Shown piece by piece: positions 14,497 to 43,903 of a stretch of 64,000 nucleotides of DNA (position 1 is its first letter; every line of letters begins with the position of its first letter). Source of the DNA: Apostichopus japonicus (lineage: Eukaryota; Echinodermata; Holothuroidea; Aspidochirotida; Stichopodidae). The notes beneath the pieces were generated by a model. That model was not told the origin of the DNA and did not search any database. It was given only the letters and a program-made list of their open reading frames with translations. A program made the position numbers and the translations under genes. The stretch lies in NCBI RefSeq assembly GCF_037975245.1, contig NC_092579.1:16826178-16890177 (forward strand), read 5' to 3'.

Positions 14497-17400
14497 TGAT
14501 CAGGAAATTTTTACTAATCATGACATATGCTACTGCGTTTTGGGTACCTCTTGACTAACACATTAAATCATAAAGGTAATTTGGCCTCTAAGTCTACATT
14601 TTTCTAGGACTAACTATATAGGGCGCTTCTTATACTGCACCATACAGTCACTAGGTTTAAGAACCGTTTAAATCAGTCCATGATCTTGGGAAATATAGTC
14701 ACCTGATTTCAGGATATGGAGCGGTGCAATTAGGGGGAGAGCATTTCTGAAATGTGGAAACACTGGTTAATTTATTGATCGCACCTGCAAAAAGCCTTGA
14801 TCATGTGTTGCGCATGCGTTACTCCCTTGTAAAACAATGGCAGCAGGTCATTGATGAAATACGACCGTTATGTAACACATTAGCCTAAAAATTCTAAGGC
14901 ACCGTCGAGGGTTACACCATGGTCAAGTATAGTGCAGTGCGGCCAGTGTTGTCTTTGTCATGTGCACGCTTCATGCCATTGATGGTTTGTAGTAGAATGT
15001 ATACACGCAACCCACTATAATAAAATGTGCATACATTCTGTACACTATAATGATGCTGTATACTGTACAGCTTGAGCGCTTGCGATAGAAGGAAATACTA
15101 CAAGGGTGATCCGACGATGTTTTAATAAATCACGGTAGAAAGATACAGCCTATTCTTTATCAATATTTTGTTTTATCTTGAATAACCGAAACTAAACATT
15201 GGATGTAATTTTCAATTGGGAAATGGACCTACATTCTTCATGACAGGTAAATGCAAACTTATATATGCTACTGGAGGTAGCTTTATTAAATAAAAACAAT
15301 AGCTGCATTTAAGTAAAAGTGAAACCGGTGATTTTGTAATTATAAATGATTGTTTGGGAATAGGATATTAAAGAGTTTCTTGTTTTTCAGTCACGAACGT
15401 TCTTTAACAAGTTTCTTAGACTGATCCGACGGTAGGCTATACATTATAGCTATGATAAGGGCTCGATATCTAGAATTTAGTAAATGAACATTTTATACAG
15501 GGTTTGGAAATTCAGTTCCAAGGAAAATGTGCTATGGTGAAAACCTTTCTACTTAATAATATTGTATACCTTGTCTCAAGAATGGACACATGTATAGGGA
15601 ACCCATGCTGAGTTGAACAAAGAAAGCCCTTGATAATAGTTTAAGACCAAAATCATTTGACGTCAACTGGTTCAAAAAATAATAATAATAACTAAGGAAA
15701 TGTAACATTGAAGAGTATCCTACTGCCGTGAGAAGGTGTCATTCTGAGTATAAATGTAATAATTTTTACGGTGAGCTCAAACTACACCAAGGGTCAACAG
15801 TGTCTGCAGAACTCACCTAAACAACTTAGTTTTCAAAATATCTTACAAGGATGATATGACGCATGCTCTGTAACAATGACGTCAACCATTAAACCTCAAT
15901 ACAGCTTTGCATTCTGGTTTAAAGATACTACAAAGGCAATAAAATGATAAACAAGATAATCTAGGCCCTAAGCGCCTTTTGTTCACAACAAATGTTATTA
16001 ACAAACTTTGTCTGCTAAGAAGGAGTATTAAGGCAAAGAATTAGTATCTTATGTTATATATAATTATTCTACATAATCGACCGAACTGCCAACTTGCGAA
16101 CTTTACAAAAATCTATAGAATTGGAATAACGTGGGGAGAATGAAGTCTCATTTCTGTAATGATGATGATAATGACTTATCGGTAATACCTATTGTTTCAT
16201 GAAATATTTTGAATGTGACAGAAAGCATCCCTGTCAGGAAATTCCTTCTACAATAGAATATCAAATATTCTACTCAGAAGTGAAAATGAAACATTGTGAA
16301 ACTTATTTAACCGAAACATTTATCGATAAGTACATAGATTAAGTATAAACACCGTCATATGTAGACCGTTACTGGTTAAGGCTAGTTTGCTTTTACTGAT
16401 TGATTTTGTTGACCTACAACAGCCAAACGTTTTCGACAAATTCTTGAGCCAACATATAATTTCGTTTACCTCTGTATACATAATATACAGTCATTTCTAC
16501 TGGAAGCTCATTGGTCAACCAAACAGCGGTCATTACTGATTTGCAATGGGATACATTGGTATATTCGCTATTGCAAGTACCAGATACGAAATACTAGTCA
16601 TTTTTCTGTCGTCGATTTTACAAATTGGTTCAAACATTGAACTCACGCCTCGAGGAAATCATGGTATTGTATACTGCGTTGGACAAGGTATACAACTGGA
16701 TCACTCAAAGAGTCAATTCAGCTGTGACGTATTTCGCGACTCTTGCGCTGGAGTACAAGAAAAATTATATCTGGAAATTATAAAGATTTCAAGGAAAAAT
16801 TCATCAATTGAAAATGAGCACTTTAAAAATTACCCTGAAACTTGTTCGTACATCTTAGATATTGTACAAAATACAACCTCATTGGCAGAAAATGATAAAA
16901 CTATCATTGCTAATTCTACAGGGATTATAGGATTTAACATTTCTAGTAACAACCTTATCAATATTCCATGTTTCGGCCATGGTTGGTCGGAAGGTTTGAA
17001 ATGGTTGGACTTTTCTTACAACAGAATTAGTCAGTTGGATTCACCGTTGTATTTTGGTAAACCTCCTAATTCATTAAACTACCTCATTTTAAAAGGAAAT
17101 CAAATAAATCAAACACACCCATTTGCTTTTCGTAATCTCACCTCTCTTAAAAAACTTGATGTTAGTGCTAATGCAGATATAGTTGATTGGGCATTTGTTG
17201 AAAACTCAATGAGTTTAAAACTTGTGAATATCAAAGATTCTTGTTCCGGAAGCAGTTTGGTTTGCACTGTAATAAGAATATGACGTTTGTAGTGAACGCA
17301 AACTACAGCGGCTGTTGCACTAGTGATTTTGAATGCAGAAACGTCAATTCCCGTTGCTCTTTTGAATATAATTGGCCTCAATTTGATCTCCCTACTTGTG

Positions 17401-20400
17401 CACCAGGTAAGTGGGTTTTATATTCTCACCAAGAACGCAAGAGAAAAGTGTCAAGAAATAAAGTTAAATAATTAATAAAAAGGCTGTATAGTAAGTTTTG
17501 CATAAGTTACATTACAATTCATATATTGCATATTCTCTAATGCCGTGCAATCAAAAAAAAAAAAAACATTAGAATTAATTTTTACTTCCTTTCAGTTTCA
17601 AGCTAGCTAGTGAAGAAACCGTTAATAGTATTTTATGTGAAGGGTATTTTTGCTAGTAAGTTTATCTCAAATTGAGCTCAAATTGTAGATTTCATGGCTA
17701 TACTTTACGTGGAGAGTAATTTATTCGCCATTTTGGCTTCTCACAATCTGAACACTGATTTGCACTGACAGGCTGCTTAGAATGTTAAAATAACTGACTT
17801 CTGGACTCATGAATATGCAACCTGATGATCTCAATATACAACAAAGGCTAGTTCCGGCTTATAGTTTTATCATACATATGCAATTAAGTTTAACATAGTT
17901 AACCTAATTCACCGTATTTCCTAAGTTTCCTTTTTTTTATTTGGAAATAAGCTTAAGTGCACAAGCAAGGTGTTAAAAGTTACCAGGTTTGTTTCCTCTG
18001 CATATTTTCTGAAAATCCTATAATGTTTGAAATTTGGAAACATGACGATCGCTATTTATCAATATAAACTATGTTATAGACTGAGCGCAAAATACCATAT
18101 AATAAACTAAAGTATTTTAACTAATGCCATTGGTTAATTGGCCATGTCGACATGAAAAAATGCATTACCTGAAAGCAAACCGATATCGTGAATATCCTTA
18201 AATCCTTAAATTAATAAATCCTTAAATATATTCTTCATTGTGTCATCAATTTCACCTAGCCATCGGTTTATCATGTCAAAAATCATGTAAAAGTTAAAGC
18301 AGCATTTTGCGTTTTGTCGCCGTTTTCCACTTTTTTGACAAGTCCAAACAGGTGTTTACATATATCAATCACAAAACAGAAAACTAAGATATTAGCCAAG
18401 TTTTTTTTCCATGCCAATAGCGTTAATTGGAGAGTATACTTAAGGACATTTGCATATAATGAGAAAAGTGTCCTCCGACAAATTACACATTTAATATTAA
18501 TCGCATACAGTTCCCCCCCAGTTTATAAATCTTAGTTATTATTTTTCCGCCAACCCACTAGTTTGAATTCAACCAATCAGAGATGCAGGTTAAGTAATAA
18601 GCCGTTGCTAAATATAGATTCAAATCGTCGAGTTGGTAACGTGGTACAACCAACGAGCTTGACTCTAACAGCTCCCTTGTACAGCTTCCATGACAGTCTA
18701 CACAAATGAAGCATGGTTTTGTATAACGTATTGGCCAATGACGTTCGTAGATTTTATATATTCATATCATGGGCGAGGTTTATTAAGATCCCAACGGAAA
18801 ATATCTTCGAGAAAAACAAAGTTGAAAGTTGTAAATTTTTCGACTTTTATGCCACCATTTGAAGTAAGATTTGAATATATAGATCAGCTAGTTATAGGCC
18901 TATATGTCGTTATGGCATCGTGGATTCAGTGAGATTGAGAAAAACCATGGAAAAGGACACAAAATGCTGCTTTAACAAGGAAGAGAAGACTGGGTGGGGT
19001 AGGAGTGTGACATATTACGTACCACCTTACCATCAGCGACGCCGAAATTTTTAACAAGGTGTCATCTTTATCAAATCCTCTATTAAAATGGCATAATTTT
19101 TTGGCAATTTTATTTTACTGTTTTCTATTACGCAGTACCTCCAATGATGTCGCTTAAGATCAACGAAAATACACTTAAACAATCTTACTACTGGGTTCCC
19201 CAGTTTGAACCAATTCTTATAACGTGCTTTGCTTGGGACGCAATGCCGAAGGTGAACCTTTCCTGGGTTACAAATGGTCGAGACAGAATCTATACACAAA
19301 CAAATGTAACAGAAGGTGATACATCAACGTATAATTCAACATCTCTGCTGCATTATATACCAACAGAAGAGAATTCATCCATTTCCTGTTATGGTAATAG
19401 TGTGATATCATCAGAGTATCACGTGGAAGTGTCACTCTATACATATGGTAAGTTAACAGAAATCATAGCATCACATATGAAGTATCAGTACACACGGTTA
19501 CAGTGTGCACATATTTTTTAAGACCAAGCATAACGTTCAATGGACCTGTGAAAAGATCAGATTAATTGTTATAGACTGGAGGAATAAGTAAACATTTTCA
19601 CAAAATACTTTTCCGAAGACAGGAATATCTCGCCATCATAAATTATGGCAAGTAAACTCCACACGCCAAAATAAGTAGCACATGATGGTACTGAATTTAT
19701 GAAACGTTTTCACGAACATGACGAATGAATGCTTTTGAATTTCGCGGTTGAAATTCGTGGTTGAAATAAGTAAAAACAAAAAAATGTAAAACTAAAGCTC
19801 CTGATATTAAAAAGTTATGTTACTCGCAGAAAATTCCCTCAGATTTTCTCATAATTTACAAGTTTCTTTAATAATTGATAATTAGTTACCTAATGTGTTT
19901 TAATCCTGAAGTTTTCTATTCCTGTTGTTTCAACATGCCCATGATTAGACTCATATCAAGTTTTCCTGAAATTAATCTTCGGATGGAAATATTAGGCGCA
20001 AAGATAGACAACCAAGAACTGTTCAATGGAATCACGTTAGTATAAGTACATATTATAGAGCACATAGTAGTAGGATGATGAAACTGCTTTACACGCATGT
20101 TAGTGTTAATATTGAGTGAACACCTTAATTCTCTTGATTATAATTAGTATACTCTCATTAATTATCGTTTTCCTACTAAACCTGGAAAGTATTATCTATT
20201 CCAGTCCAATTGCTGTGTGACAATTTCATCAGGTGAACAATATTTAAATTAAATTTAAGCTATTATCTTATATATTTCAACTTTAAGCGAGTTCAAATTA
20301 CAGTAAAACATCCAACGATATGTCTGATAAAGGTAATGGGTGCGTAAGTAGTTACCTATGTTACACTTTTGTTAATGAAAAGTCTTTCCAGAACTTTACA

Positions 20401-20477
20401 TTACTTTGAATGGTGAAAGAATCGAGAAGGAATATGTGAATTCTGGAGAGTACTTAAATGTCAGTTGCCATGCTGAT
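14497..20477 (+). repeat. Tandem segmental duplication, unit 1
   Basis: This segment is collinear with 20474-29659. It includes the 5' flank, LRR exon, long intron, first Ig exon, intron and the first 86 bp of the second Ig exon. At 20474-20477 (TGAT) the receptor sequence switches abruptly into sequence matching 14497-14530 (28 of 31 bases). This is what a direct tandem duplication with a 4-bp junction microhomology would give. Unit 2 is longer mainly because of later insertions (20506-22711, 24183-24460, 27075-27663 and the inverted arm at 23635-23754). Confidence 0.88.
16546..20477 (+). pseudogene. Truncated LRR-Ig receptor copy 1 (frameshifted, 3'-deleted)
   Basis: Paralogue of the receptor at 25057-38831. 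Exon 1 (16546-17406) matches the intact copy but has one T fewer near 17256-17258, in AGCAGTTTGG. The frame ends at a TGA at 17281-17283 after 245 residues, before the Cys-rich end of the LRR cap. The remaining exon-1 sequence stays open in another frame to the conserved GTAAGT donor. Exon 2 (19136-19447, Ig-like domain with TCFAWDAMPKVNLSW and SSISCYG) is intact. Exon 3 starts at 20392 but runs into the duplication junction at 20477 after LNVSCHAD. The stalk, membrane and kinase-like exons are absent. If transcribed it could make only a soluble LRR fragment. It is a partial duplicate, probably a pseudogene; an expressed secreted form cannot be excluded. Confidence 0.85.
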
Positions 20478-21579: not shown

Positions 21580-21979
21580 CGCGGCGGGGGTGCAGCCCCT
21601 AATTCGCCATTACTAATGTAAAAGAGAGTTTTGACATAATTGGACCTCCATGCTTTTTATACATCTACATGAGACATGTCGTTGTTTACATTAGCATCCC
21701 GCAAAATACTGCGCAATTTGAACGGACCGTACGGTACATGATGGCATGCGATGTAATAATCGATGCTTGCTTATATGATATTGACATGAACACGTTGAAC
21801 GCGCGCTTAGCGCGCGAAAATTTTTGGTTATTTTTTCAGGCAAGTCGGACAGTTTTGAGGCTTTTCATCCTGGAACGCCATTTTCATGCTCACTGATATG
21901 ATGTGATATCTGCTGTTTGCGTTACAAATTCGAACAGGCGCGTAGCGAGGAATTTGCCAAGGGAGGGGCGAAGCCTGTA

Positions 21980-22165
21980 GGCAAATTATCTAAGCGTAGC
22001 GCCACCATAGGTTGGCGCGAAGCGTACAAGAAAATTTTGGCCGAAAATGCCTCCCAGATCTCTGGAAATGGCACTACCCAGGACCATTTGTTAGCGCGAA
22101 GCGTACAAGCAAATTTTGGCCGAAAATGTCTCCCAGATCGCTGGAAATGACACTTCCCAGGCCTT
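21980..22165 (+). repeat. Hairpin module with 75-bp tandem partial duplication
   Basis: Part of the transposon at 20506-22711. The module reads TATCTAAGCGTAGCGCCACC, then a TTGGCGCGAAGCGTACAAG segment, then a tail of the form CCCAGATCTCTGGAAATGGC. The second half (from TTGGCGCGAAG) is repeated about 75 bp later at 22092. GCGCCA and TGGCGC, separated by about 7-10 bp, form an inverted repeat. Related modules occur near 13283, 20547 and 21264. Confidence 0.7.
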
Positions 22166-23501
22166 GTAAGTTGCCTCTATTTCTTTTTTGAAATTACTTA
22201 GCGATATCATTTAAAAAAAATGCTGAATGGGGGGGGGGGCGGGCGGTCGCCCCCATCCCAAAATGCGTCATGTTCCCCGACGACACGGTCGAGTTCGAGA
22301 CCAGCCACAGTTGGTTTCATAGCACAATTCTACACACGCGTTATGATAGACCATATATAGTACATATATAGATCATTAGTGAGAGAGGAAAATGGAAACG
22401 TCAAAAAATGGAGTTGTCGGTGTAAGGGGTAGGGTGAGTCACACTTTTACGAAATCATTGATCCGTCACTGGCTACCCTTCAGCGCTGTAATGATGTCAC
22501 TGTTCCTCTTTCTCTCCCCGGTGTCTTCGCGTTTTTCTTTTACTCCCTCCTTTTCTCCTTTTTCTCTCTTTCTTCTTTTTCTTTTCCCTTCCTTCCTCTC
22601 CTCCTCCTCTTTTTTCCCCTCTTTTTTCCTTTTTTTTTCTCTTTTTTTTCTCTCCTCTTTTTCTTACCCGGGGGGCGCGCGCCCCCAACGCCCCCCCTGG
22701 ATACGCACCTGCATAGGCTAGCCTTTAGCTATATAGGGTGCTTCTTATACTGCACCATAGGGGAGAGCATTTCTGAAATGTGGAAACATCGGTTAATTTA
22801 TTGATCGCACCTGCAAAAAGCCTTGATCATGTGTTGCGCATGCGTTACTCGCTTGGAAAACAATGGCAGCAGGTCATTGATGAAATACGACGGTTATACA
22901 CCAATATATTAGCCTAAACAATCTAAGACATCTTCGCTGTGACGCCATGGTCAAGTATAGTGCAGTGCTGCCAGTATTGCCTTTGTTATAGCCACGTTCC
23001 AGGCTATTGATGCTTTGTAGTGGAATGCACACACAACTACTATAATAAAATGTGCATAGTGTCTGTACACATAACGGTGCTACCGTACTTGTATGCTTGT
23101 GATAGAAGGAAATACTAGAAGGGTGATCTGAAATGTTAAATAAATCACGATAGAAAGATACAGCCCATTCCTCATCCATATGTTTTGTTTTATGTTGAAT
23201 AACCGAAACTAAACATTGGATGTAATTTTCAATTGGGAAATGAACCTACATTCTTCATGACAGGTAAATGCAAACTTATATATGCTACTGGAGATAGCTT
23301 TATTAATAAAAACAATAGCTGCATTTAAGTAAAAGTGAAACCGGTGATTTTGTAATTATAAATGATTGTTTGGGAATAGGATATTAAAGAGTTTCTTGTT
23401 TATCAGTCACGAACGTTCTTTAACAAGTTGCTTAGACTGATCCGACGGTAGGCTATACATTATAGCTATGATAAGGGCTCGATATCTAGAATTTAGTAAA
23501 T

Positions 23502-23754
23502 GAACATTATATCCAGGGTTTGGAAACTCAGTTCCAAGGAAAATGCGCTATGGTGAAAACCTTTCTACTTAATATTATTGTATACCTTGTCTTAAGAATG
23601 AGACACATGTATAGGTAACCCATGCTGAGTTGTATACAACTCAGCATGGGTTACCTATACATGTGTCTCATTCTTGAGACAAGGTAGGTAGAACGGTTTT
23701 CACCATAGCGCATTTTCCTTGGAACTGAATTTCCAAACCCTGGATATAATGTTC
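23502..23754. repeat. Large near-perfect palindrome (about 120-133 bp arms)
   Basis: The left arm starts GAACATTATATCCAGGGTTT and the right arm ends with its inverse at 23754. The centre, GTTGTATACAAC, lies at 23629-23640. The right arm lacks about 13 bp (the TAATATTATTGTATACC part of the left arm) and has a few substitutions. Unit 1 (15484-15615) has only the left arm in single copy, so the inverted arm was added after the duplication. No TIR-plus-TSD structure is seen. Confidence 0.9.
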
Positions 23755-24182
23755 ACAAAGAAAGCCCTTGATACTAGTTTAAGGCTAAAATCATTTGACG
23801 TCAACTGGGTCAAATGTTAAACGTTGTGACCACCATAGCTAAGGAAAAGTAACATTGACAAGTATCCTACTGCCACGAGAAGGTGTCATTCTGAGTATAA
23901 ATGTTGTCATTTTTGTGAGCTCAAACTACACCAAGGGTCAACAGTGTCTGCAGAACTCACCTAAACAACTTAGTTTTCAAAATATCTTACAAGGATGATA
24001 TGACGCATGCTCTGTAACAATGACGTCATCCATTAAACCTCAATACAGCTTTGCTTCCTGGTTTAAAGATACTACAAAGGCAATAAAATGATAAACAAGA
24101 TGATCTAGGCCCTAAGCGCCTTTTGTTCACAACAAATGTTATTAACAAACTTTGTCTGCTAAGAAGGAGCATAAGGCAAAGA

Positions 24183-24460
24183 AAAATGAGACGGGAGGAA
24201 AGGAAATGACACCTTTATTGAACCCGCCTATATGTCTTAACTTTTTCGCACAAACAAATTGATAAACTGCTCAGAAATATTGCCAATCAAGAAACAACTT
24301 TCCCATAGTACATAAGCTTAGCAGAGCTTCTGCAGCGCGTTGCTGCTCATGTTTTGAGTGTGACAGACAGTATCTGTGCCAATTAATTCCTTCTATTCAA
24401 TGGCATATTATTTAGGCTACTACTTAAAAATGAAAATGAAACGTTGTGAAACTTTAAACA
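24183..24460. other. Segment in the 5' flank of the intact receptor, absent from unit 1
   Basis: Unit 1 passes directly from AAGGCAAAGAA to TTAGTATCTTATG (about 16035-16045), while unit 2 has about 280 extra bp here. The latter part (24350-24455, with GAGTGTGACAGACAG, AATTCCTTCTA and AATGAAACGTTGTGAAACTT) is a diverged copy of 24630-24725 in the same flank. This points to an old local duplication, most likely lost by deletion in unit 1. Confidence 0.65.
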
Positions 24461-25056
24461 ATTAGTATCTTATGTTATATATAATTATTCTACATAATCG
24501 ACCGAACTGCCAACTTGCGAACTTTACAAAAATCTATAGAATTGGAATAACGTGGGGAGAATGAAGTCTCATTTCTGTAATAATGATGATAATGACTTAT
24601 CGGTAATACCTATTGTTTCATGAAATATTTTGAATGTGACAGAAAGCATCCCTGTCAGGAAATTCCTTCTACAATAGAATATCAAATATTCTACTCAGAA
24701 GTGAAAATGAAACATTGTGAAACTTATTAAACCGAAACATTTATCGATAAGTACCTAGATTAAGTATAAACACCGTCATATGTAGACCGTTACTGGTTAA
24801 GGCTAGTTTGCTTTGAGGTATTGGAATGTCAACATCACAATTTAAAAATAACTTTCCTCATACAAATATCATTGTCTATTTTGAAACTTAGTTATCAGAG
24901 ATCATACTGATTGATTTTGTTGACCTGCAACAGCCAAACGTTTTCGACAAATTCTTGAGCCAACATATAATTTTGTTTACCTCTATATATATCATATACA
25001 GTCATTTCTATTGGAAGCTCATTGGTCCACCAAACAGCGGTCATTACTGATTTGCA

Positions 25057-28000
25057 ATGGGATACATTGGTATATTCGCTATTGCAAGTACCAGATACGA
25101 AATACTTGTCATTTTTCTGTCGTCGATTTTACAAATTGGTTCAAACATTGAACTCACGCCTCGAGGAAATCATGGTATTGTATACTGCGTTGGACAAGGT
25201 ATACAACTGGATCACTCAAAGAGTCAATTCAGCTGTGACGTATTTCGTGACTCTTGCGCTGGAGTACAAGAAAAATTATATCTGGAAATTGTAAAGATTT
25301 CAAGGAAGAATTTATCAACTGAAAATAAGCACTTTGAATATTACAATGAAACTTGTTTGTACAGCTTAGATATTTTACAAAATACAACCACATTGGTAGA
25401 AAATGATAAAACTACCATTGCTAATTCTACAGGTATGATAGGATTTAACATATCTAGTAACAACCTTACCAATATTCCATGTTTCGGTCATGATTTGTCG
25501 GAAGGTTTGAAATGGTTGGATTTTTCTTACAACAGGATTAGTCAGTTGACTTCAAAGTTGTATTTTGGTAAACCTCCTAATTCATTAAACTACCTCATTT
25601 TAAAAGGAAATCAAATACATCAAACACACCCATTGGCTTTTCATTATCTCACCTCTCTTAATAAACTTGATGTTAGTGCTAATGCAGATATAGTTGATTG
25701 GGCATTTGTTGAATACTCAACGAGTTTAAAACTTGTGAATATCAAAGATTCTTGTTCCGGAAGCAGTTTTGGTTTGCACTGTACTAAGAATATGACTTTT
25801 GTAGTGAACGCAAACTACAGCAGCTGTTGCAGTAGTGATTTTGAATGCAGAAACGTCAATTCCCGTTGCTCTTTTGAATATAATTGGCCTCGATTTGATC
25901 TCCCTACTTGTGCACCGGGTAAGTGGGTTTTATATTCTCACCAAGAACACAAGAGAAAAGTGTCAAGAAATAAAGTTAAATAATTATTAAAAGGCTTTAG
26001 AGTAAGTGAAGTTACGTTACAATTCATATTGCATTTTCTGTAATGCCGTGCAATCAGGAAAAAAAAACACATTAGATTTCATTTCTACTTCCTATCAATT
26101 TCAAGCTAGTGAAGAAACCATTAATAGTACTTTATGTGAAGAGTATTGTTGCTAGTAAGTTTATCTCAAAAGGAGCTAAAAGTGTAAAGATTGCATGGCT
26201 ACTTGACTTAAGTTATAAGCCATTTTGGCTTCTCCCAATCTGAACTCTGATGTGCACTGGCAGGCTGCTTAGAGTGTTAAAATAACTTACTTCTGGACTC
26301 ATGAATGCAACCTGATGATCTCAATATACAACAAAGACTAGTTCGGGCATATAGTTTTATCATACATATGCAAGTTTAACCAAGTTAACCTTATTCACCT
26401 TCTTTCCTAAGTTTCCTTTTTCATTTGGAAATAAGTTTAATCAAGGTGTTAAAAGTTTCCAGGTTTGTTTCCTCCGCAATTCCGCATATTTTCTGAAAAT
26501 CCTATAATGTTTGAAATTTGAAAACATGGCGATCGCTATTGATCAATATAAACTATGTTATAGACTGAGCGCAGAATACCATATATTAAACTAAAGTATT
26601 TTAACCAATGCCATGGGTTAATTGGCCATGTCGACATGAACAAAATGCAGTATCTGAGAGCAAACCGATATCGTGAATATCCTTAAATCCTTAAATTAAT
26701 AAATCCTTAAATATATGCTTCATTGTGTCCTCAATTTCACCTAGCCATCGATTTATCATGTCAAAAATCATGTAAAACTTAAAGCAGCATTTTGCGTTTT
26801 GTCGCCGTTTTCCACTTTTTTGACAAGTCCATCTAGTTTTTTACATATATCAATCACAAAACAGCAAACTAAGATATTAGCCAAGTTTTTTCCCTGCCAA
26901 AAGCGTTAATTGGCGAGTCATTAAGGACATTTGCAGATATAAGAAAAGTGTCCTCCGTGTGTTAAATTACACATTTAATATTAATCGCATACAGTTCCCC
27001 CAACCCACTAGTTTGAATTCAACCAATCAGAGATGTAGGTTTAGTTATGAGCCGTTGCTAAAAATAGATTCAAAAGGAAGCTGCTCACTTCGCCCAACAA
27101 CAATTTCGCCTAACTGCCATTTCGACCAACCTTACCATTTCGCCCAACCTTGTTGGTCATTTCGCCCAACCAGCATGGTCATTTCGCCCAACCAGCATGG
27201 TCATTTCGCCAAACCTTGCTGGTCATTTTGACCAACATTGATTAAATATTATACTTCAATATTGGTCAATTTAATAAGGAAACGTTCGGGAATTGTTAAC
27301 GTTACGGGATACCAACCGAATATTAAGGAAACTTGAAGTCGTGGTTACAGTCGGTAGGATGGATCAGTGTTTTAGGGGTTAGGTTTGATAGGTTTTTATG
27401 TAGACCGATTCCCCTTTGTTTGTATAACAAACGAAGTAATATAACCCCCAAAAAAAATCAAACTGAACTAGTGAAATAGAAAAAGAAAAATATTTCTAAC
27501 TGAATATGAGTAAAAAATATGGTTGGTCGAAATGACCATGCTGGTTGGGCGAAATGACCATGCTGGTTGGGCGAAATGACCATGCTGGTTGGGCGAAATG
27601 ACCATGCTGGTTGGGCGAAATGGCAGTTGGGCAAATGGTTGTTGGGCGAAGTGACCATAAAGCGATTCAAAACGTCGAGTTGGTAACTTGGTACAACGAC
27701 CCTAACAGCTCCCTGGTACAACTGCCATAGACAGTCTATGATGTTCGTAGCCTTTAAATATTCATATCATGGGCGAGGTTTATTTGGATCCCAACGGAAA
27801 ATATCTTCGAGAAAAACAAAGTTGGAAGTTGTAAATTTTTCGACTTTTATGCCACCATTTGAAGTAAGATTTGAATAGATAAGCTAGTTATATGTCGTTA
27901 TGGCATCGTGGATTCAGTTAGGTTGAGAAAAACCATAGAAAAGGATGTAAATTGCTGCTTTAACAAGGAAGAGAAGACGGAGAGGGTGGGGTGGGAGTGA

Positions 28001-31000
28001 GACATATTACGTACCACCTTACCATCAGCGACGCCAAAATTTGTAACAAGGTGTCATCTTTGCCAAATCCTCTATTAAAATGGCATAATTTGTTGGCAAT
28101 TTTATCTTACTATTCTCTATTACGCAGTACCTCCAACGATGTCGCTTAAGATCAACGAAATTACACTTAAACAATCTTACTACTGGGTTCCCCAGAATGA
28201 ACTAATGGTTATAACGTGCTTTGCTTGGGACGCAATGCCGAAGGTGAACCTTTCCTGGGTTACAAATGGTCGCGACAGAATCTATACACAACTTAAAGTA
28301 ACAGAAGGTGATGCACCAACGTATAATTCAACATCTCTGCTGAGTTATATACCAACACAAGAGAATTCATCAATTTCCTGTTATGGTAATAGTGTGATAT
28401 CATCAGAGTATCACGTGGAAGTGTCACTCTATACATATGGTAAGTTAACAGACTAAAGTATCATAACACACTTATGATAAAGAAATCATAGCATCACATA
28501 TGAAGTATCAGTACAAACGTTTAGATCACAGCATCATGTATTCAGTGTGCACATATTTGTTAAGACCAAGCATAACATTCAATGGATCTGTGAAAAGATC
28601 AGAATAATTGTTATACACTTGAGGAGTTAGTATATAGTAACGTTTGGATCGTTCTGTTATAAACATTTTCACAAAATACTTTTCCGAAGACCGGAATATC
28701 TCGCTATTCATAAATTATGGCAAATAAACTCCACACGCAAAGATAAGTAGCACATGATGGTACTGAATTTATGAAACGTTTTCACGAACACAACGAATGA
28801 ATGCTTTTGAATTTCGCAGACTATGTATTGCAATATTTTCTTTTATATTGTTTATCTATTTCGTGGGCTCTCAGTAGGTACATGTTGATTCGTGGTTGAA
28901 ATAAGTAAAAACAGAAAACTGTAAAACTAAAGCTTTTGAAAAGTTTCATTTTAACAAATAATGCATCATGTACTTGTCTTCTCTCTCGGTGGAGTTTTAA
29001 GTTGCTCGCAGAAAATACCCTGTCTATTAGATTTTCTTATAATTTACATGTTTCTTAAATAATTGATAATTAATGTAATAATGTGTTTAATCCTGAAGTA
29101 TTCGTGTTGTTTTAATATGCCCATGATTAGACTCATATCAATTTTTCCTAAAATTAATCTTGAGATGGAAATATTAGCAGCAAAGATAGTAAACAAAACA
29201 CTGTTCAATGGAATCACGTTACTATAAGTACATATTATATAGCACATAGTGGTAGGATGATAAAACTGCTTTACATGCATGTTAGTGTTAACATTGAGTG
29301 AGCACCTTAATTCACTTGATTATAATTAGTATACTCTCATTAATTATCGTTTTCCTACTAAACTGGGGAATTATTATCTATTCCAGTCCAATTGCTGTCT
29401 GACATTTTCATCAAGTGAACACTATTTAAATTAAATTTAAGCTATTATCTTATATATTTCAACTTTAAGCGAGTTCAAATTACAGTAAAACATCCAACGA
29501 TGTGTCTGTTTAAGCTAATGGGTACGTAGGTAGTTACCTATGTTACATTTTTGTTGATGAAAAGTCTTTCCAGAACTTTACATTACTTTGAATGGTGAAA
29601 GAATCGAGAAGGAATATGTGAATTCTGGAGAGAACTTGAATGTCACTTGCCATGCTGATGGAGCAAGACCTGTATCATCGTTATCCTTTAACGACCGCAA
29701 TGAAGTTGTGACTGAATTACCACCGATCACAAATACGTCCACAAGCATCTCGTTCCTTCTGATGAAACGACTGGAACAGGAGAATATTACATGTACGAGT
29801 ACACAACGACGTGAGGATGAATCTGATCTCACGAGATTTGTCACGGTGACAGTTACTGTGCCTGGTAAGGAAAATAAGCCGTCCGCCACATTGTGGTTAC
29901 AGAGATGTCATTCTTAAAGTTGTTACCAACTGGGAGCCTTAAGAAGAGAGTCTGCTTCCATTTCCCCAATTCTGCTTCTTCTTACAGTATATATTTTTAG
30001 CTTTGGATTTTCTTAAGCATACCTTAAGCAGAATTTCAGTTGTCATCTTCATATGTTATAGTCCAAGAAAAAGAAAGCCTCAGAATGAGTGCTAGTAATA
30101 TTCCATATCTATCCGGTTTTCAAGATACACACCTTTAAATATTATGTTAAATCTATGCATTGGATAATGGATAGCTTTAATGTACAGTTCATTCATACTT
30201 AGTAAAGATCCCTAAATCCTATTGGTCCATTCAGGTCAGCTGACCGTGGTTAATCCTGTGAGTAACGCACGGTAAAATTACGGGGCATCACTTTAATAAA
30301 TCTTTGGTTATATGTAACCAAAAATGTTTTGTTTTATGATTTTTCCCCCACACAAATGGTAGTGTATGAATGAACGGGGTTAATCAACGGTCTAGCGTGC
30401 GTTACTCAAATGATTAATGCACTCCGGGTGTTAATGCTATCGCTGGATGCACTCGGGCTCCGCCCTCGTGCATCGCTTGCATTATCCCCCGATCGTGCAT
30501 TAATCCTATGAGTAACGCACGCTAGACCGTTGATTAACCCCTTATTAATACGTTGTTTTATACACTCCAATAACTCAACCAGACTTTCATTTGGATGTTA
30601 TTCAACACCACTTTGCCTTGAACATTTTGTAATATATTGCAAACATGTCATTGAAGACAATCTAAGTCTTTTGTTTTCCAAACGAGTTTTGTTGCATCTG
30701 ATGAATGGCAACATTGGTATGTGTTTTATACTGCATAGCTCGATCACTTTAATTGATGAACCTCAAGGGTGTAAAGGGGAATTTCACAAATGTAGAGGAA
30801 GAAGTGTTACAAGTGTGTGTTACAAGAAGTGTTAGTGAAATACAACCCTATAATAATAGCAGTGTCTACAACATAGCAATGTTAATTATGTCCCTCAAGT
30901 CATCGTTCAATATGGAAAATCCACTTGATGATGACATTTTGAAGAGCACATACCCTTCAATATGTTTCATGTTTTGAGTGTTGTAGTAAAAGAAAATAAT

Positions 31001-34000
31001 TTTAAAAAAACGTTTATTGAAACATGTTTTCATTTCTTCTCCCACTGTCTTTCAGAAAAGTCGACCACACAACCAGGTAACTTCAGTTGGATATCATGAG
31101 TGATTTATTCCATAACTTAAAAAATTGGAGTAGGATCGGTGTTCTTATTTTTTACCCGAAGACATAGGAATATACCAAAAGGCAAAAGAGCTCCCAAAAC
31201 ATTTATCAATGATAACCTGTGCATCCTTTAATGTTTTGTATATATTTAGTCCAATCTAACATATTAATGGTTTGTTTATTTGTTGTTTTAATTTGCTGTT
31301 TTGTTGTTGTTATGGGAGATCATTCGATGATCATCTAATCTAATTGTAATTGGGGGTAAAGGGTGTAAAGGGGAATTTCACAAACATAGAGGAAGAAGTG
31401 TTAATAGCAATACAACCCTATAATAATAGCAGTGTCTACAACATATTTATGTTAATTATGTCCCTCAAGTCATCGTTCAATATGGAAAATCCACTTGATG
31501 ATGACATTTTGAAGAGCACATACCCTTCAATATGTTTCATGTTTTGAGTGTTGTAGTAAAAGAAAATAATTTAAAAAAAAAACGTTTATTGAAACATGTT
31601 TTCCTTTCTTCTCCCACTGTCTTTCAGAAAAGCCGACCACACAACCAGGTAACTTCAGGTTTGGATATCATGAGTGATTTATTCCATACCTTAGGAATTT
31701 GAAGTAGGATCGGTGTTCTTAATTTTTACCCGAAGACATAATATACCAAAAGGCAAAAGAGCTCCGAAAACATTTATCAATGATGATCTGTGCATCCTTT
31801 AATGTTTTGTATCTTTTTAGTCCAATATAACATATTAATTATTTGTTTATTTGTTGTTTAATTTGCTGTTTTGTTGTTGTTATGGAAGATCATTCGGTGA
31901 TCTTCTAATTGTAATAAATTGTGCACAAAAAATTGTTTTAATGAAATCTCTTGAAATTATCTAGCTACCAATCATTTGTCTTCTGCAAAACGTGTTCAAT
32001 TGCATGTCACGAAATATTTCCATTTACTTTCAGATAGCCCAACAAAAGATCCACCATCTTCAGGTTTTCTTTCATTCAGATATTTATGTAATATTAATGC
32101 ATACAATTAATTTAAATTAGCAACAATGATATAGAGGGGATTTTACTGTTATTAAGATTGATTACTGTTACTGTTTTTTTTTATTGTATTTCTTACTTCA
32201 ATTATCACACTTTTGTTGCCTTCATAGTTATTCCGGAAATCACTTTACTATGTGTTAATCTACTTTTGTTTTGGTACAAGAGTAAGCTATGTGAAAATAA
32301 TTTCAGACCTATTTACGCAACAAGTCCATTGTTTTATTCGAGATTGCTAATTGTAACGTGACATGCAGACGTATCAATAGAAAACTTGTGTCAATGCACT
32401 GTTCAGATATTTGGGTATAACTATCTACTTTCGTTTCAGGATTTGATTATCTTCAATGGATCATACCCAGTATTGCTACACTGTTAACTTGTTTCGTGTT
32501 TGTCTGCATCTACAAGATAACCACGAAGATCAGAGGTAAACGAAGTTGTTTAAAATCGAACTGTTATGCTATATCATAAGATAAGCTGTCATAACAAAAC
32601 ACCATGGTTATGTTTACTATCAACTAATGAAGAACACAAATTTGAAGCGGTTTTACGAAATATTCAAAGTGAATAATGATACTTGTTTATTTGCATGTGT
32701 GACATGACATATGTCAATGCTTGCTGTTTATTTCATGGGTCACATGACATGTTTCAATGCTTGTTGTTTATTTACATGTGTAACATGACATGTCTCAATG
32801 CTTGTTATTTGCTTGCATGTGTAAACAAAATATGTCCCAATGCTTGTTATTTGATTGTATGTGTCACATGACACGCTTCAAATGCTTTTTGTTTACTTGC
32901 ATGTGTCACATAACATGTTTCAATGCTTGTTGCTTATTTACGTACTGTGTAACATGACATGTCCCAATGCTTTTTATTTGTTTGCATGTGTCACATGACA
33001 TGTTTCAATGCTTGTTGTTTATTTGCATGTGTAACATGACATGTCCCAATGCGTATTATCTGTTTGCACGTGTAACATGACATGTTTCAATACTTGTTGT
33101 TGATTTGAATGTGTAACATGACATGTTTCAATACTTGTTGTTGATTTGAATGTGTAACATGACATGTTTCAATACTTGTTGTTGATTTGAATGTGTAACA
33201 TGACATGTTTCAATACTTGTTGTTTATTTGCATGTGCAATATGACATGATTCAATACTTGTTGACAGATCCCTTCAAACTCCAATAATTGAAGAATAATT
33301 TCCGTATTGACATTATTAATATATTTTCATTTCCATATGTAGCTTTGATGTCTGTTACATTTTCAACGTAAGTCTTTTGTGTTCGTTTGGATTTTGGATG
33401 ATTGTTAATACATTTGTTAATTGTCGACTTTTCTACATTGACAGACGCGTTGTATTAACATTAATATGATATTCTCGAATCCAATTTGGAATAACTGAAG
33501 TTATTAGTTGGCTATTCATCACTTTGATATTGACAAATTATTTCTATTACAATGGCCAAGGTTGGTCACTTGATTGAATTATAGTTTATGTTATAACGAT
33601 TGCAAATTCATCCTTTCTATAGACATGTACAATGACAAATGGTTCTAAAATCAGGTGGCATGAATACATTGTTGAATTAATGTGCAATTATTAATTAACT
33701 TTTTATTTAGTTAGCAGATTAATTTATCAAATGTTCAACCTGCAAATGATTCTAAGGGGATAGGAGACATACCATACGTTTTAACTGAATTTTCCCCAGC
33801 CAATAACAAAGAGATGTCTGTTATTTATTCAGAGATGCAGATACAACTCATCTGAAACTCAACAGCTTGCCGGCGGATCAATCACGTAAGATAAAGCAGT
33901 TTTTAATCTGTATTAGACATCATATGCAAATCGTTTTCATATTTGATGATATTTCCTTGACTACTATATCTCTGTCTTTACTTTAGTTGCACATTATTCG

Positions 34001-34551
34001 TCACAAGTGTATCTCCAAAACAAACAGAAGTAAGTAGACTTAAAAACTTTGGTCAAACGCAATTATGAATTTAGAAAATTCAAAATTGTGGTTCTTTATG
34101 TGGCTGAATTTATAATGCACAAATCTTAATGTCTAATTATTTTCATTATGTTATTGCAAACATAACAATGTCTAACTATACTTGTTATCACAAGACTACT
34201 TGTTACGTTAACGATATTGTTTTCATTACCGAGGTATAACCATAATTGTGTATAATGTAAGCACTTATCCGTATTTCATTTAATTTTTAATATAAATGCG
34301 CAGTTCGTTTCATTAGCTGTCGAGTAGTTGAAACAGCTTCAGATAATTCTAATTACCTTTTTACCGTCTTCTGCAAAATGGAAAACAATTATGAGATATA
34401 CATTCTCACTTTGTTTCTGTATTTCACTTTAGATCAGCTCTTCCAAGCATTCCGAGAGACGAAATCAGTTACAATCATTTTAGCAGCAGTGAAAGCAGTA
34501 AGATTTTACATGAATTCTAATCGAAGGAAAGTGCATAATTTAATGATAATG

Positions 34552-34603
<52 letters not shown>

Positions 34604-37600
34604 GTTATTTGCTTTACGAGCAATATTGGGATCGTCTCATGTATGTTTCCCACTGTAAATAAACGATTCACGTTATTATGATGTACACTATGACAAATAT
34701 ATTTTGGAAAAGTATATTGCTGTTGATACATTTTCACTGACTTCCCTATGAAACCTTCACGTGTTCATCTTACCTATCTGAAAGCTTAACGTATTTTTAT
34801 TGTTTTTACACCTGTATCTGCTGTACAGTATATTACTCTGCAGAAAAGGAAAGCACATCGAAGGACAGAATATTTAGTGAGAATGAGTTCTGTATCTTAT
34901 CGACAATAAAGGTCGGAACAATTTACAATAGATGGATGGGTACTATCAAAACTCCCAACAAATTCGCGGTTCTAACGACAATCGCAGGTTAGTCGCAGCC
35001 TTGATTGCTGGTACGCATGTGTCTCGCGTGTAAACTACAAACTGGTTTTACAAAAGCCTTTCTCTTGTATTGAAGTATTGCAGCTAGGAACGTAAACAAC
35101 GAATTGCGAGGTTTTAATGCATTTCGTTTAATTATGCATAGTCTATTAACTAACAGAGACATGTTCCTTTCTTGCTGAAAGTTTGTGATGTAAAGTGTGA
35201 CACTTGAGATATTCAATAGGCCTATATGAAACACTATTTTTCTGCATTAGAGGGAGTTATGGAGAAACAAATCAATTGGGATGCATTTGTCAAACGCACA
35301 CTTGACCTGCCTACGACGGATCATCTTACGAGAATCGAGGGAATAGCAGTCGAAAAAAGTGAGTTATTCTTTCATCGCGTAGATGTCTACGTTACATCTA
35401 TATACTGGTACAAACGTACCACCTTGATATTGAACTGGACTGGTGTAGGTCTTATACAACACTGTTTAGATCATAAACGCTTTTTAAATTCCCGCGTTTT
35501 AGCTTAACATGAAAACTTATCTGGCTGAAGAAATGTTAAAATCACATCTTACTTGCAGGTTTATTGATATATCAATGATCGTATTTTAGTTATCGCTACA
35601 AGCGATAAAATTGTCGGCTTTACTCTGTAATAAATGATCTCCTGATATGTCTGGCGTTTAGCACAGTATAACGATGCATTTTCAATGACGAATCCCTACC
35701 TGTTAGTTCACAAAGAAATAAATCAACGTAAAATTAAATGCAAGCTTTAGCCAGTAGTGAAGGAAAAACATCGGATTATTCATTGTTTGCATGCAGTTAC
35801 GAATAGGTTTGTCTCCTCTCTGGCTTGTACCTATATAGGCAATGGAAGCATGTGAAATTAACATTCGAACCGCATGGTGTAATATCATCAATCGTGCATC
35901 ACATTAGGTATGTAGTATTTTAATCCTTACAGCCACCCTTTACCTGGTTACTGAACGTACTGTCTGTGAGACATTGAAGAGCCGCCTTACATTTGACCCG
36001 AGTTCACAAAGCAGTACATTTTCAGTTTCGGATGTTATGAAACATGTCGCTGCCATTTTGGAAGGAATAAAATGTTTGCAGTCGTATGGGGTGAGTCGAC
36101 TACACAGTTATGTATCAATAGTAGAGTTGCTTATATATATGTTGTTTTCCAAAAGAAGTTGTATTATTATTCAAATTGTTGCAGTACTACACTGACACTT
36201 GCGTTAGTGTGACAGTTGGTTTGCCGATTTTGTCAACATAACTGAATCAACAACAAGATGCCACACTAAAATTTGAAGAACAAAATCATGAGATTCAATG
36301 AATGAGCCGAATCGCATCATCTTTTGAGAATATAAAATTGTTTTTATGACAACATTTAAGAAGCTCTTTGTGGTTAGATTTAAAGAAGTTTAATAAATCG
36401 CACCCCCGCTCACATCAAACCCCGTTTGTTTAAAACACAATGGCCATTGTCCAAGAATATATCCCGTATTCCACTATTATATTAGTTCATTGTTATAACT
36501 AATTGTTTGTGTTTTATGTTTTGTTCAAAACATATATCTTCCAATTAATTTTAACAGTTTTTACATCCGGGGTTATCAACAAAGAAGATTCTATACACAA
36601 ACGAAGGAATCTGCAAATTATATGATTTCTGCCTCGCTGAAGATGCGCCAAAAGTAGTTATGCTAAAGAAGACACAGGTGATCATCCTTCCAAAACCAAT
36701 TTCGAAATGTTTTCATAGTAACAAACTTTTCAAACTATAGTTTTCATTTTTTAATTCCATCTCATTTATTGAATGTTATGTTATTACATAAAATTTCACC
36801 AAACAGAACGTTTGTGTCCTTATCAAAGTTAATCAATATTTCCGTACAAACTAAAATACTGCAATTGTAGGTAACATCTTTATTAATGAACAAAAGGTGC
36901 CCTTTGACGTAGGTAGAAAGCATTAAACAATTTCATCTTGATTGACTTCTTTGATTATTCATGGTATTTTCTAATTGTTGTAGAAGTATATAAATTAAGT
37001 ATAAAGAAGATAATTACGGATTAATATTACCTTTTCAGTTTTTCTTCAATCGTAGTTACGGCTATAAAACTTTCTTATTTTTGCCAGATGAATACTGTCT
37101 CCTTTAATCAGTTACCTCCAGAATCTTTCTTCCGTAATGAATACACTGCTGAGAGTGATGTATGGTCCACAGCTGTAGTAATATGGGAAATCTTATCGAG
37201 TGGTAAAATAAAGAATACAAAACTATTGGGTTTAATGCATGAGCCCTATCCTAAGCTATTATCGTTTTCATAATACAGTATTGCTATAACATTTGTGTAT
37301 GTAAAGAAGAACAAATATTGGAAAATGAGATTTCTCAGAACAATATATGATTTAGGTGACATAATGAATGGCAATATTAGGAAGTTGTTTAGTTTGTATT
37401 GCCATACTTTCATGACTAATTTTGAGACTACCAATCATGATCATCTGAGAAAGCGACTTACAACATTTAATTCGTTCTATAGAGAGTAAAGTCTATGTTC
37501 CTAATATCTTAATAAGCAGAATAATATAGCTATGGACAAATGTAGTGTATTACTTTAGTACCATGCGTATTACACTATTCCACAAGGTTTTTTCCTTTTT

Positions 37601-38831
37601 GCAAAAGTTTAGGCGTAATATTTTATTTTAAGACATACAAAACCACCAGTTCAAAAGAAGGGACGATTCCCCGAACCAAGAGCATATGTCATATTTTGTC
37701 TTCGATTTTTTTTTTCGAAGGAGAAACTCCGTTTCCTGTGGATGAAGATATACAACCCGGTCAATATGTAAATGCACCGATGTTAAAGTGGCCTCAGAGA
37801 TGCTTTCAGCTAAGGTATCACTTACTTATGTCAATCGTAAATCATTTATTTACAGCGAATTTAATATCAATCATGTGAATTTGCAATAATTCACATACAG
37901 ATACAATATAGCAATGTAATTATATCATTGTTTTGTTCAGTAAAGTCAGTAAAATAGCATTGTCAAGACAAAATAACGACAAATAATCCTGCACCATGGT
38001 CCTACTTTAAAAATATTTAATATTTTTCACATGTGGCAATGACGCGCGATAAGCAAAGTGACACCAACATATACATTTAGTGAAACGTTAATTATCATTT
38101 GGCTAAACCAACAGCTTTTCACAACACCTATGGAGGAAATGGCATATTAATATTTAATAAGTTGATTGGGACTAAAATATGATTTAGAGAACTTAGCTAC
38201 TCGGTAGTGTCTTACACTACAATAGCGGGATGTAAACATAACCATTTAAATTGATACATGTCTTTAGTATAAAACATTCTGAAATTAAAATTAATTACTT
38301 ATTCGATAACTATTTACCATTTCATTCCTAAGATTGATAACCATAAGGTTGATAACCAAGGTAAATATCGTTCTATATTGTCTTTCGACAGAAACTTGGT
38401 ATTATTTGATTGTTGGAGTCAAACATGTTCTCTTAGACCTTCAATTCATTATCTTAAAGAATCATTCAGAGCGGTAAGTACATTGTTAACTAAGTGATGC
38501 ATTGATTACAGAAAATACAGGTACACATAAATACACACAAGGCAATGTTTATTTTAAATGCTACAAAAAAGAATGTATAAGTAAATGCGTGAATTAATTT
38601 CTTGAACAGTAATTTACTTTGTATCTTAGGCATTCGAAAATGACACTTACCACGAGCGATGAGTTTTAATTAAAGACTTTCAGAACTAAGGAGAAACATT
38701 TATTATTAGCACCTAAATGTCCTTTCTTTTTGTGTTCGCAGGTTTTCGAAACTTTAAGAGAAAACAGTTTCTATGAGATACCACGCTCGGGATTATATAT
38801 GCCAATGAGTGGAGTTACTAATTACAGTTAA
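25057..38831 (+). CDS. LRR-Ig receptor tyrosine pseudokinase, 19 coding exons, 914 aa
   Basis: Single-pass surface receptor. Exons: 25057-25918, 28128-28439, 29574-29864, 31056-31076, 31628-31648, 32034-32063, 32440-32535, 33343-33367, 33833-33885, 33987-34029, 34433-34497, 34829-34987, 35251-35358, 35933-36090, 36558-36677, 37088-37202, 37721-37814, 38392-38473, 38742-38831; all GT-AG and phase-consistent. Residues 1-30: hydrophobic leader (ILVIFLSSILQ). LRRs at about 125-230 (GLKWLDFSYNRIS, LNYLILKGNQI) with a Cys-rich cap. Ig-like domains at 288-391 and 392-488. Thr/Pro stalk, then one membrane span at about 519-538. Kinase-like domain at about 622-885: Gly loop degenerate (KVGTIYNRWMG), VAIK Lys replaced by Leu655, helix-C Glu by Arg675, HRD by HPG (751-753), catalytic Asn by Lys758, DFG by DFC (771-773). 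Structural SDVWS and RPS are kept. The tail has YEIP and YMPM. It is predicted catalytically dead but intact. Ligand unknown. The signal peptide start is the only ATG considered. Confidence 0.9.
27075..27663. mobile_element. Non-autonomous transposon with minisatellite-built inverted termini
   Basis: A 589-bp insertion in intron 1 of the intact receptor. The flanking 8-bp duplication GATTCAAA (27067-27074 and 27664-27671) appears once at the matching place in unit 1 (about 18618). Both ends carry inverted arrays of a roughly 22-bp unit (ATTTCGCCCAACCAGCATGG). The left arm is 27086-27236 and the right arm 27520-27654, with a unique AT-rich centre. Outer TIRs contain CACTTCGCCCAACAAC. There is no ORF of transposase size. 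The 8-bp TSD would fit hAT or a similar superfamily. Confidence 0.82.
30376..30541. repeat. Palindromic MITE-like element in intron 3
   Basis: Arms GGGGTTAATCAACGGTCTAG (from 30376) and the inverse ending at 30541 are about 50 bp long and near-perfect, including GCGTGCGTTACTCA. The loop contains GGGCTCCGCCCTCGTGCAT. A partial related fragment (GAGTAACGCACGGT) lies at 30258-30272. No clear target-site duplication was found, so a complete foldback transposon is likely but not proven. Confidence 0.65.
30765..31920 (+). repeat. Intragenic tandem duplication carrying a stalk exon
   Basis: Unit A (about 30765-31358) and unit B (about 31359-31920) are direct repeats. Both start AAGGGTGTAAAGGGGAATTT and both contain a run from ACAACCCTATAATAATAGCA to GTTTCATGTTTTGAGTG, a CCCACTGTCTTTCAG acceptor and a 21-bp exon. 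The exons (31056-31076 and 31628-31648) encode EKSTTQPG and EKPTTQPG. The duplication added one stalk repeat without changing the reading frame. Confidence 0.85.
32680..33265 (+). repeat. 41-bp minisatellite in the receptor intron after the membrane exon
   Basis: About 14 units of roughly 41 bp built on TGTAACATGACATGTTTCAA followed by TACTTGTTGTTGATTTGAATG. The three units between about 33113 and 33235 are nearly identical, while those nearer 32680 are more diverged (TGTCACATGACATG variants). It is non-coding; the ORF read through it is a shadow. Confidence 0.85.
34553..34600. repeat. (TA)n microsatellite in receptor intron
   Basis: An uninterrupted TA dinucleotide run of about 48 bp between the exons at 34433-34497 and 34829-34987. 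It produces spurious Tyr/Ile-rich reading frames on both strands. Confidence 0.97.
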
Positions 38832-42169: not shown

Positions 42170-43903
42170 TAGCCCTCTCCTATGTGCATTAGTAATTATA
42201 AGTAAAAGAGTCTGTGACCAAGAGTTTAAGTCAGAGGTTATTGCCCCTTCGCAGGAAGTTGTAATGACATAAATACTGTAGTTTTTTAGTATGCAAAAGA
42301 CTAGCATTTCAGACTTCAGAAGTGTGTAGTTCAGATACACTATTCTGGATCTGCACTCCAGCAACAATGTCATCTCAGTGTAAATAAAGCTTATATTCTA
42401 CAATTATACCTATGTCTTGAGTTTCTCTTTATCTGCTGTTAATTCTACTTATTTAATTACGGGACCCTGAACTAATTGAGCCGGAGCACCCCGACGGAAT
42501 ATTTAGGAAGAGAAACGGGTGAAGAGAATATTTGTCGGGGAGAGTGTGATCTTCTAATTTATTGCGATTAATCCTTAATAATCAGGCGGGTAGGCTAGCC
42601 TTCGCTGTGTGAAGGGGCAAAACCAAAGCTGTGTCCTGGTAAGGTTTTCATGAACGCCTGTATGACGTTTCATACGAAGTTTTATACGAATTTGAAAACA
42701 TAAAATGCAAGCCATTTACCTGTCAATCACGGAATCAAAGTTAATTTATTTTCCTGTGTAATGTCGTTCAATGCTTATTATGGCTAATATTAATAAGGAA
42801 GTCCTTTTGAGAAGAAGATCACTGTTGAAATTGTTGAAAAAAGTGCTTTGCTGTCCAAATTATACTGTTATACACATTTGAAGTTTTGATAAATCTGGGA
42901 ATCTCATTAAATATGTGCAACCTATGACGTGGAGTGTTGCGCTCATCAAGACTTCTTAGGTAACCCTTATGATTACAAGCCCGCATATATAATTCGAATA
43001 ATGTGATGTTCGTCTTTTCAAATAAAATATTTCAAAAATCGCCTTAAGCCACAAATCTGTGTTCAGTGTCGATCCTTGAAAGGAAGCCTTGTTGAAACAA
43101 ATGAATAACATAACAGAAAATTAGGCAGTCACTCCATTTACACACCATCAATGTGCATAATTAGCTAATGTTTATTTAGAAATGAAACTTGAATTAAGGA
43201 AAGACTTGTTAAAAGGTCAATCTTTGATGGACTTTAAATTTGATGGGAGTTGCAGCTATTTTCATGATTTCTAATGTCTATGAGACTGATTAGGTTTACC
43301 TGAAGAATTTGCATTGAAACCCCAAATCAGTCCCTTCAAAAGTGTGCAGCAATACGAAAGAATTAAAAATGTTTTTCATAGGTGTCCGTAGACCATTAAA
43401 AGAAACAAATTCAGTATAGTAGATGAAATTACGAAACGAAGACAATTACCCCAACCTGGTGACCAGGTGGTTATATAGCAGCTCCTGAATGCAATGAATA
43501 TTCATCTCTCGCGGAACTGCATATATAAATAGCCTATAAACCTTTAGGCCTCTATTTATATCAAATATATCGATGTAGTCCTGTTACGTGCATGTATATT
43601 TTGATAAAGCCAAAATCCTCTGATTTTTTAGTTTTAATGATTAATCTATATTGATCACGCATTAGGTAAAAAGTATATGAGTAATTTGTGGGTGATGGGG
43701 GGGGGGGGGTAGGGCCGAGGTGAGATGGGGTAAGATAACTATATATAGCCTACTCAACAAAAGATAAATTCGTGATAGCCTTCCACTTGAAGAATTTGCA
43801 TTTAAACCCAAAAGCAATCCCTTCCATAGTTTGCAGCAATACGAAAGAATTAAAAGGAAGAATATCGGCATATTCATATAAAAATGTAGACAATTTGAAA
43901 CTG
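42170..43903. other. Intergenic; no gene seen
   Basis: AT-rich sequence without recognisable coding exons or a clear transposon structure. A G-run lies at 43699-43708. An internal direct similarity exists between 43309-43370 and 43790-43855: both contain GAAGAATTTGCATT, AAACCC, TCCCTTC and GCAGCAATACGAAAGAATTAA. It looks like a small dispersed repeat. Confidence 0.45.

Follow-up and report, generated by a model that had tools for sequence, protein, structure and literature searches.

Receptor pseudokinases have been described chiefly in vertebrates, with a few model invertebrates besides, and include Ror, Ryk and EphB6 in addition to PTK7 and ErbB3, the latter of which possesses YxxM motifs. 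A pseudokinase is defined in PMC4718504 by the loss of at least one of three residues, the lysine of VAIK, the aspartate of HRD or the aspartate of DFG, and the prevailing view of ErbB3, as given in PMC8869822, is that of a pseudokinase partner. Among tyrosine kinases, leucine-rich repeats (LRRs) are associated with Trk (PMC8662651), the receptors of which are described as consisting of LRRs with cysteine-rich flanks, two immunoglobulin-like (Ig) domains, one transmembrane segment and a tyrosine-kinase fold (PMC2772990). LRR ectodomains have also been joined to kinases other than Trk, as indicated by the account of ApLRRTK from Aplysia, an LRR ectodomain linked to a tyrosine kinase, which its authors assign to the FGFR family and not to Trk (PMC4200351). 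The gene dealt with here occurs in a stretch of 64,000 nucleotides, the window, from the holothuroid Apostichopus japonicus (contig NC_092579.1, positions 16,826,178 to 16,890,177 of the forward strand) and encodes what is apparently a strongly diverged, functional receptor pseudokinase with an LRR-Ig ectodomain. No LRR-Ig receptor pseudokinase was found in the titles and abstract beginnings searched, from which no absence from print is claimed.

The gene occupies positions 25057-38831 (+) of the window, from the first ATG at 25057 to the end of the stop codon at 38831, and its structure was deduced from DNA alone. Joined at consensus sites, its 19 exons form a sequence of 2745 nt that codes for 914 residues without any internal stop, so that the in-phase frame proposed in the initial annotation could be rebuilt as such. 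All 18 introns are of the GT...AG type, with phases consistent across the gene, and the alternative frames of the spliced sequence contain 48 and 74 stops. In random sequence of equal composition, a run as long as exons 8-19 (1112 nt, 370 codons) would stay open with a probability of about 9e-12. Behind its leader-like N-terminus, the protein has a short run of LRRs and a pair of Ig-like domains; a Thr/Pro stalk then leads to the transmembrane segment, beyond which lies the tyrosine-kinase-like domain (Table 1).

The tyrosine-kinase-type domain is recognized by the Pfam family PK_Tyr_Ser-Thr over residues 678-882 (E 1.2e-28; 100.6 bits versus a cut-off of 23.1). The β3 lysine of VAIK is absent, its place being taken by L655 or, in the MAFFT alignment, by T656; the helix-C glutamate is replaced by R675, HRD by H751-P752-G753, the catalytic-loop asparagine by K758, and DFG by D771-F772-C773, which retains the aspartate and loses the glycine, and two of the three glycines of the Gly loop (K634/G636/Y639) are replaced as well. 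All these replacements had been listed beforehand and were found as described. Having lost both the lysine and the HRD aspartate, the domain is a pseudokinase according to the definition given above. The residues that are retained include H751, D771, F772, E800 of the PPE motif, D812/V813/W814 and R873/P874, belong mostly to the C-lobe and bear out the earlier statement that scaffold motifs remain. With respect to 14 active kinases, whose sequences were entered by hand, 48 columns are conserved (the same residue in at least 13 of the 14), 25 of which are kept and 23 lost. The losses affect 11 of the 13 nucleotide-binding or catalytic positions (two kept) versus 12 of the 35 positions elsewhere (23 kept; Fisher P 0.0029), the division being the analyst's choice based on textbook roles, with three Gly, the V and A of the pocket, the β3 Lys, the helix-C Glu, the R and D of HRD, the R and N of the catalytic loop and the D and G of DFG as active-site positions.

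Like ErbB3 and PTK7, the protein is a receptor whose kinase-fold domain is short of key residues, but it differs from receptor pseudokinases of that type by its LRR-Ig ectodomain and by a larger number of lost active-site positions. The joint alteration of the Gly loop, HRD and DFG recalls MLKL and other strongly degenerate pseudokinases as described in PMC4718504, although MLKL is not a receptor and its human and murine forms possess the β3 lysine. Since the active site is lost and the framework spared, the pattern is what would be expected if catalysis was lost while selection continued to act on the fold, and not of random decay. Because nearly all catalytic residues are gone, the protein probably has the role of a scaffold or partner in signalling, not that of an enzyme.

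A partial tandem copy of the 5' part of the gene is located upstream. Its exon 1 (16546-17405) contains a one-base deletion that shifts the frame and its exon 2 (19135-19446) is open, whereas exon 3 starts at 20391 and breaks off after its first third; unrelated DNA extends over 20478-23400 in place of the remainder of the second Ig exon. Units of about 80-100 nt (75-90% identical) recur at 13283, 20548, 21262, 21987 and 22083. A part of intron 1 of the intact gene, 27075-27663, has no counterpart in the copy and is flanked by inverted arrays of TTTCGCCCAACCAGCATGGTCA-like units, as judged by eye, and therefore probably corresponds to a mobile insertion. A second set of kinase exons was not found in the window by tblastn of the 914-residue protein (E <=1).

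The comparison of both copies makes use of four alignable blocks for the introns and of the ectodomain exons for the coding part. Frame-changing gaps amount to one in 1259 exon bases versus 25 in 2471 intron bases, where 12.7 were expected in the exons (P 4e-5); if half of the gaps fell on the broken copy, the expectation would be 6.4 (P 0.013). Substitutions separate the copies at 64 of the 1259 exon bases and at 198 of the 2471 intron bases. No stop codon was born by substitution in the copy, the expectation being 3.1 with all 64 differences unconstrained and placed on it (P 0.04), and 1.6 with half of them there. From the scarcity of frame-changing gaps and the lack of substitution-born stops, it is probable that both copies spent much of their history with a protected ectodomain frame, while the residues changed fast under a loose constraint. 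The idea that selection maintains an intact pseudokinase, put forward in the initial annotation, finds support in the open frame, in the losses biased towards the active site and, as far as the ectodomain is concerned, in this protection of the frame.

The resemblance to Trk suggested at the outset holds for the domain order (cysteine-flanked LRRs, two Ig domains, a transmembrane segment and a kinase; flanking cysteines judged by eye), which is that given for Trk in PMC2772990. The best sequence matches do not favour Trk, and in the tree a place with Trk is neither supported nor excluded. Against the PDB, the kinase-like domain matches 1459 distinct sequences (E <=0.01), the best 60 of which are all EGFR, Eph or FGFR chains, with no Trk among them. 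Similarly, the LRR exon matches the IGF acid-labile subunit (1.2e-10), LGR4, LRFN, Toll-like, LRIG1 and lamprey VLR chains, without any Trk in the best 60 of 125 matches, and the two Ig domains yield no significant match (best E 0.11), Trk being absent from all 32 of the 32 hits. Identity to 17 kinase domains, entered by hand, ranges from 17.3% (Ror1) to 23.2% (Tie2), with 20.4% for ErbB3, 18.7% for PTK7 and 19.3% for TrkA, which is accordingly not preferred.

In the tree of 18 kinases, the branch of the receptor is 9.28 changes per column long and its position has no support. MuSK, TrkA and Ror1 are nearest by path, in a grouping of the best tree that has a support of 76/91 and is not starred. 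Among six groupings submitted to approximately unbiased (AU) tests, one already occurs in the tree, four are unrejected (p 0.31-0.46) and that with PTK7 is marginally rejected (p 0.046); TrkA alone (p 0.46) and the FGFR/KIT/VEGFR/RET/Tie set (p 0.37) both belong to the unrejected ones. Several kinase introns may be placed much as in FGFR/KIT/VEGFR-type genes. The first kinase intron interrupts codon 660, five codons past L655, whereas PMC2772990 locates that of Trk genes within the ATP-binding lysine. Instead of a competent kinase with activation-loop tyrosines of the Trk type, the domain displays a destroyed catalytic site (HPG, K758, DFC) and no tyrosine between DFC and PPE (771-801). A divergent orthologue of the Trk neurotrophin receptors that has lost catalysis, in favour of which the domain order, the nearest tree rows and the AU result for TrkA alone can be invoked, is thus highly improbable in view of the absence of Trk from the best matches, the likewise unrejected FGFR-containing grouping and the displaced intron, and Trk membership is not supported. 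By descent, the receptor kinase would rather represent a separate, strongly diverged tyrosine-kinase-like branch, the origin of which is not placed by the tree. ApLRRTK is also an invertebrate receptor in which LRRs are combined with a tyrosine kinase placed outside Trk, but in PMC4200351 it is without Ig domains, has nine LRRs (eight according to the legend) and a kinase referred to as a catalytic domain, and the receptor is reported to signal.

In the ectodomain, the LRR_8 family of Pfam covers residues 150-209 (E 3.4e-6), at 27.2 bits barely above the cut-off of 27. The first Ig domain corresponds to C2-set_2 (residues 298-373, E 1.8e-8) and the second to Ig_3 (residues 405-465, E 3.2e-4), under the curated cut-off. 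An AlphaFold2 model of exon 1, built from a two-sequence alignment, has a mean predicted local distance difference test score (pLDDT) of 35.2. Residues 519-537 form the most hydrophobic 19-residue stretch of the receptor, the next ones being near the N-terminus. Exons 2 and 3, the three mini-exons (21, 21 and 30 nt) and the transmembrane exon are all of phase 1-1, i.e., modular. Two of the mini-exons are copies of each other, exons 4 and 5 encoding EKSTTQP and EKPTTQP, respectively, and reside in a direct duplication of about 570 bp with ungapped blocks of 172, 125 and 83 nt that are 98, 92 and 98% identical. As read from these blocks, the recent duplication created exons 4 and 5 and thus an in-phase exon that lengthens the stalk. 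Intron 7 contains direct repeats at 32695-33304, mostly with a spacing of 41 bp.

The cytoplasmic part contains 16 tyrosines (residues 574-913). The tail holds two motifs, YEIP (Y896) and YMPM (Y904), the latter being its single YxxM and a consensus for the p85 subunit of phosphoinositide 3-kinase (PI3-kinase); a tail motif of this type is a further likeness to ErbB3. The most probable of the readings considered here, held with moderate confidence, is that of a single-pass receptor pseudokinase which acts as a co-receptor without catalysis of its own and is phosphorylated by a partner kinase, in principle like ErbB3. In such a scheme, the LRR-Ig ectodomain would bind a protein ligand or a partner receptor, the kinase-like domain, unable to transfer phosphate, would offer a surface for docking and dimerisation, and an active partner tyrosine kinase would phosphorylate the juxtamembrane and tail tyrosines, chiefly Y904 of YMPM, which may then recruit p85. 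Alternatively, a decoy or adhesion receptor, non-signalling or inhibitory, could rely on a working ectodomain, as the 14 N-glycosylation sequons in residues 1-518 would fit, with a kinase-like domain that does no more than lend the protein stability or keep a partner sequestered; the missing catalytic residues and the extreme length of the kinase branch agree with it, but the retained C-lobe framework and tail tyrosines would be needless for a mere stabiliser, which makes this alternative rather unlikely.

Several observations weigh against a partner-phosphorylated co-receptor under selection. Some kinases devoid of canonical residues are active, e.g., WNK (PMC4718504), and residual activity is reported even for ErbB3 (PMC8869822). 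At least one YxxM occurs in 33% of 20000 shuffles of the 373 cytoplasmic residues and is thus common, while the exact YMPM, found in 0.06% of them, was picked after being seen. Codon usage in the kinase exons is of no help, the true frame scoring 5.0 bits and frame 2 9.5 bits; the score of the true frame was reached by none of 2000 drawn sets of intron triplets, a test that frame 2 passes too. The protection of the frame covers the ectodomain only, the kinase exons having no comparator in the window. Over 419 codons, the ratio of replacement to silent divergence between the copies (dN/dS) is 0.95 (dN 0.052, dS 0.055; bootstrap 0.55-1.94), a value that neither refutes nor proves selection because one of the paralogues is broken.

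Together with the broken sister copy, this ratio near 1 would suit a young pseudogene, with its function lost and its kinase exons simply free of stops so far. Such a pseudogene is improbable, however, since about 80% of the kinase positions differ from every kinase compared and exons 8-19 have nevertheless remained open, the active site has taken a disproportionate share of the losses and the frame is protected between the copies. The first 75 codons show no replacement in 175 sites, versus 50 in 818 for the rest, and only two silent changes in 225 bases; being poor in silent changes too, they are explained equally well by gene conversion and by constraint. Outside these codons dN/dS reaches 1.09 (bootstrap 0.6-2.46), and positive selection on the ectodomain is not claimed.

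A receptor that combines the near-total erasure of the active site with a kept frame and much of the C-lobe framework, and that has an ectodomain of Trk-like order but without Trk sequence, would independently exemplify the conversion of a receptor enzyme into a scaffold. It would also serve to test whether the coupling to PI3-kinase through a catalytically dead partner has more than one evolutionary origin. The existence of a new invertebrate class of Trk-independent LRR-Ig pseudokinase co-receptors, coupled to PI3-kinase, like ErbB3, by a partner-phosphorylated YMPM and diversifying by tandem duplication, fast ectodomain replacement and stalk-exon duplication, is a doubtful extension; if true, the class would diversify as recognition receptors do. 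For the lineage-specific receptor family suggested initially, the window offers one paralogue, damaged and partial. An immune role, also evoked initially, is possible and unsupported, nothing in the sequence being specific for immunity.

Table 1. Exons of the receptor gene and its upstream copy (positions in the window).
Feature	Position	Strand	Content
Partial tandem copy	14734..20477	+	5' part of the receptor gene, matching 22760-29659; gapped blocks 82.5-98.9% identical, smaller side matches excluded
Exon 1	25057..25918	+	Residues 1-287: hydrophobic leader-like N-terminus, cysteine-bearing N-flank, about 3 LRRs (by eye), LRRCT-like C-flank
Exon 2	28128..28439	+	First Ig-like domain (C2-set_2)
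Exon 3	29574..29864	+	Second Ig-like domain, Pfam score under cut-off
Exon 4	31056..31076	+	Stalk mini-exon, 7 residues, copy one
Exon 5	31628..31648	+	Stalk mini-exon, 7 residues, copy two, within the direct duplication of about 570 bp
Exon 6	32034..32063	+	Stalk mini-exon, 10 residues
Exon 7	32440..32535	+	Transmembrane segment
Exon 8	33343..33367	+	Juxtamembrane
Exon 9	33833..33885	+	Juxtamembrane
Exon 10	33987..34029	+	Juxtamembrane, Y574, Y579
Exon 11	34433..34497	+	Juxtamembrane, Y598
Exon 12	34829..34987	+	Y608/Y609, degenerate Gly loop, β3 strand without Lys
Exon 13	35251..35358	+	Helix C, Glu replaced by R675
Exon 14	35933..36090	+	Hinge to helix E region
Exon 15	36558..36677	+	HPG for HRD, K758, DFC for DFG
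Exon 16	37088..37202	+	Activation-loop end, PPE, SDVWS
Exon 17	37721..37814	+	C-lobe
Exon 18	38392..38473	+	C-lobe, RPS
Exon 19	38742..38831	+	C-terminal tail, Y896-EIP, Y904-MPM, stop

Elsewhere in the window, an exon at 8817-9224 (-) encodes a Josephin domain of the deubiquitinase type (45.1 bits versus a cut-off of 26), and pieces resembling an MFS transporter, SLC17-like by eye, occur at 49750-56795 (+), with Pfam matches in three of the five pieces scanned in this neighbourhood, all under the cut-off; these neighbours say nothing on the function of the receptor. ARAGORN detected no tRNA in the window. A low-complexity array at 43882-44560, open in several frames on both strands, is probably no gene. 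At 61790-62512 (+), a single-frame open reading frame of 241 codons, for which no Pfam family scores above its cut-off, displays two hydrophobic stretches as judged by eye.

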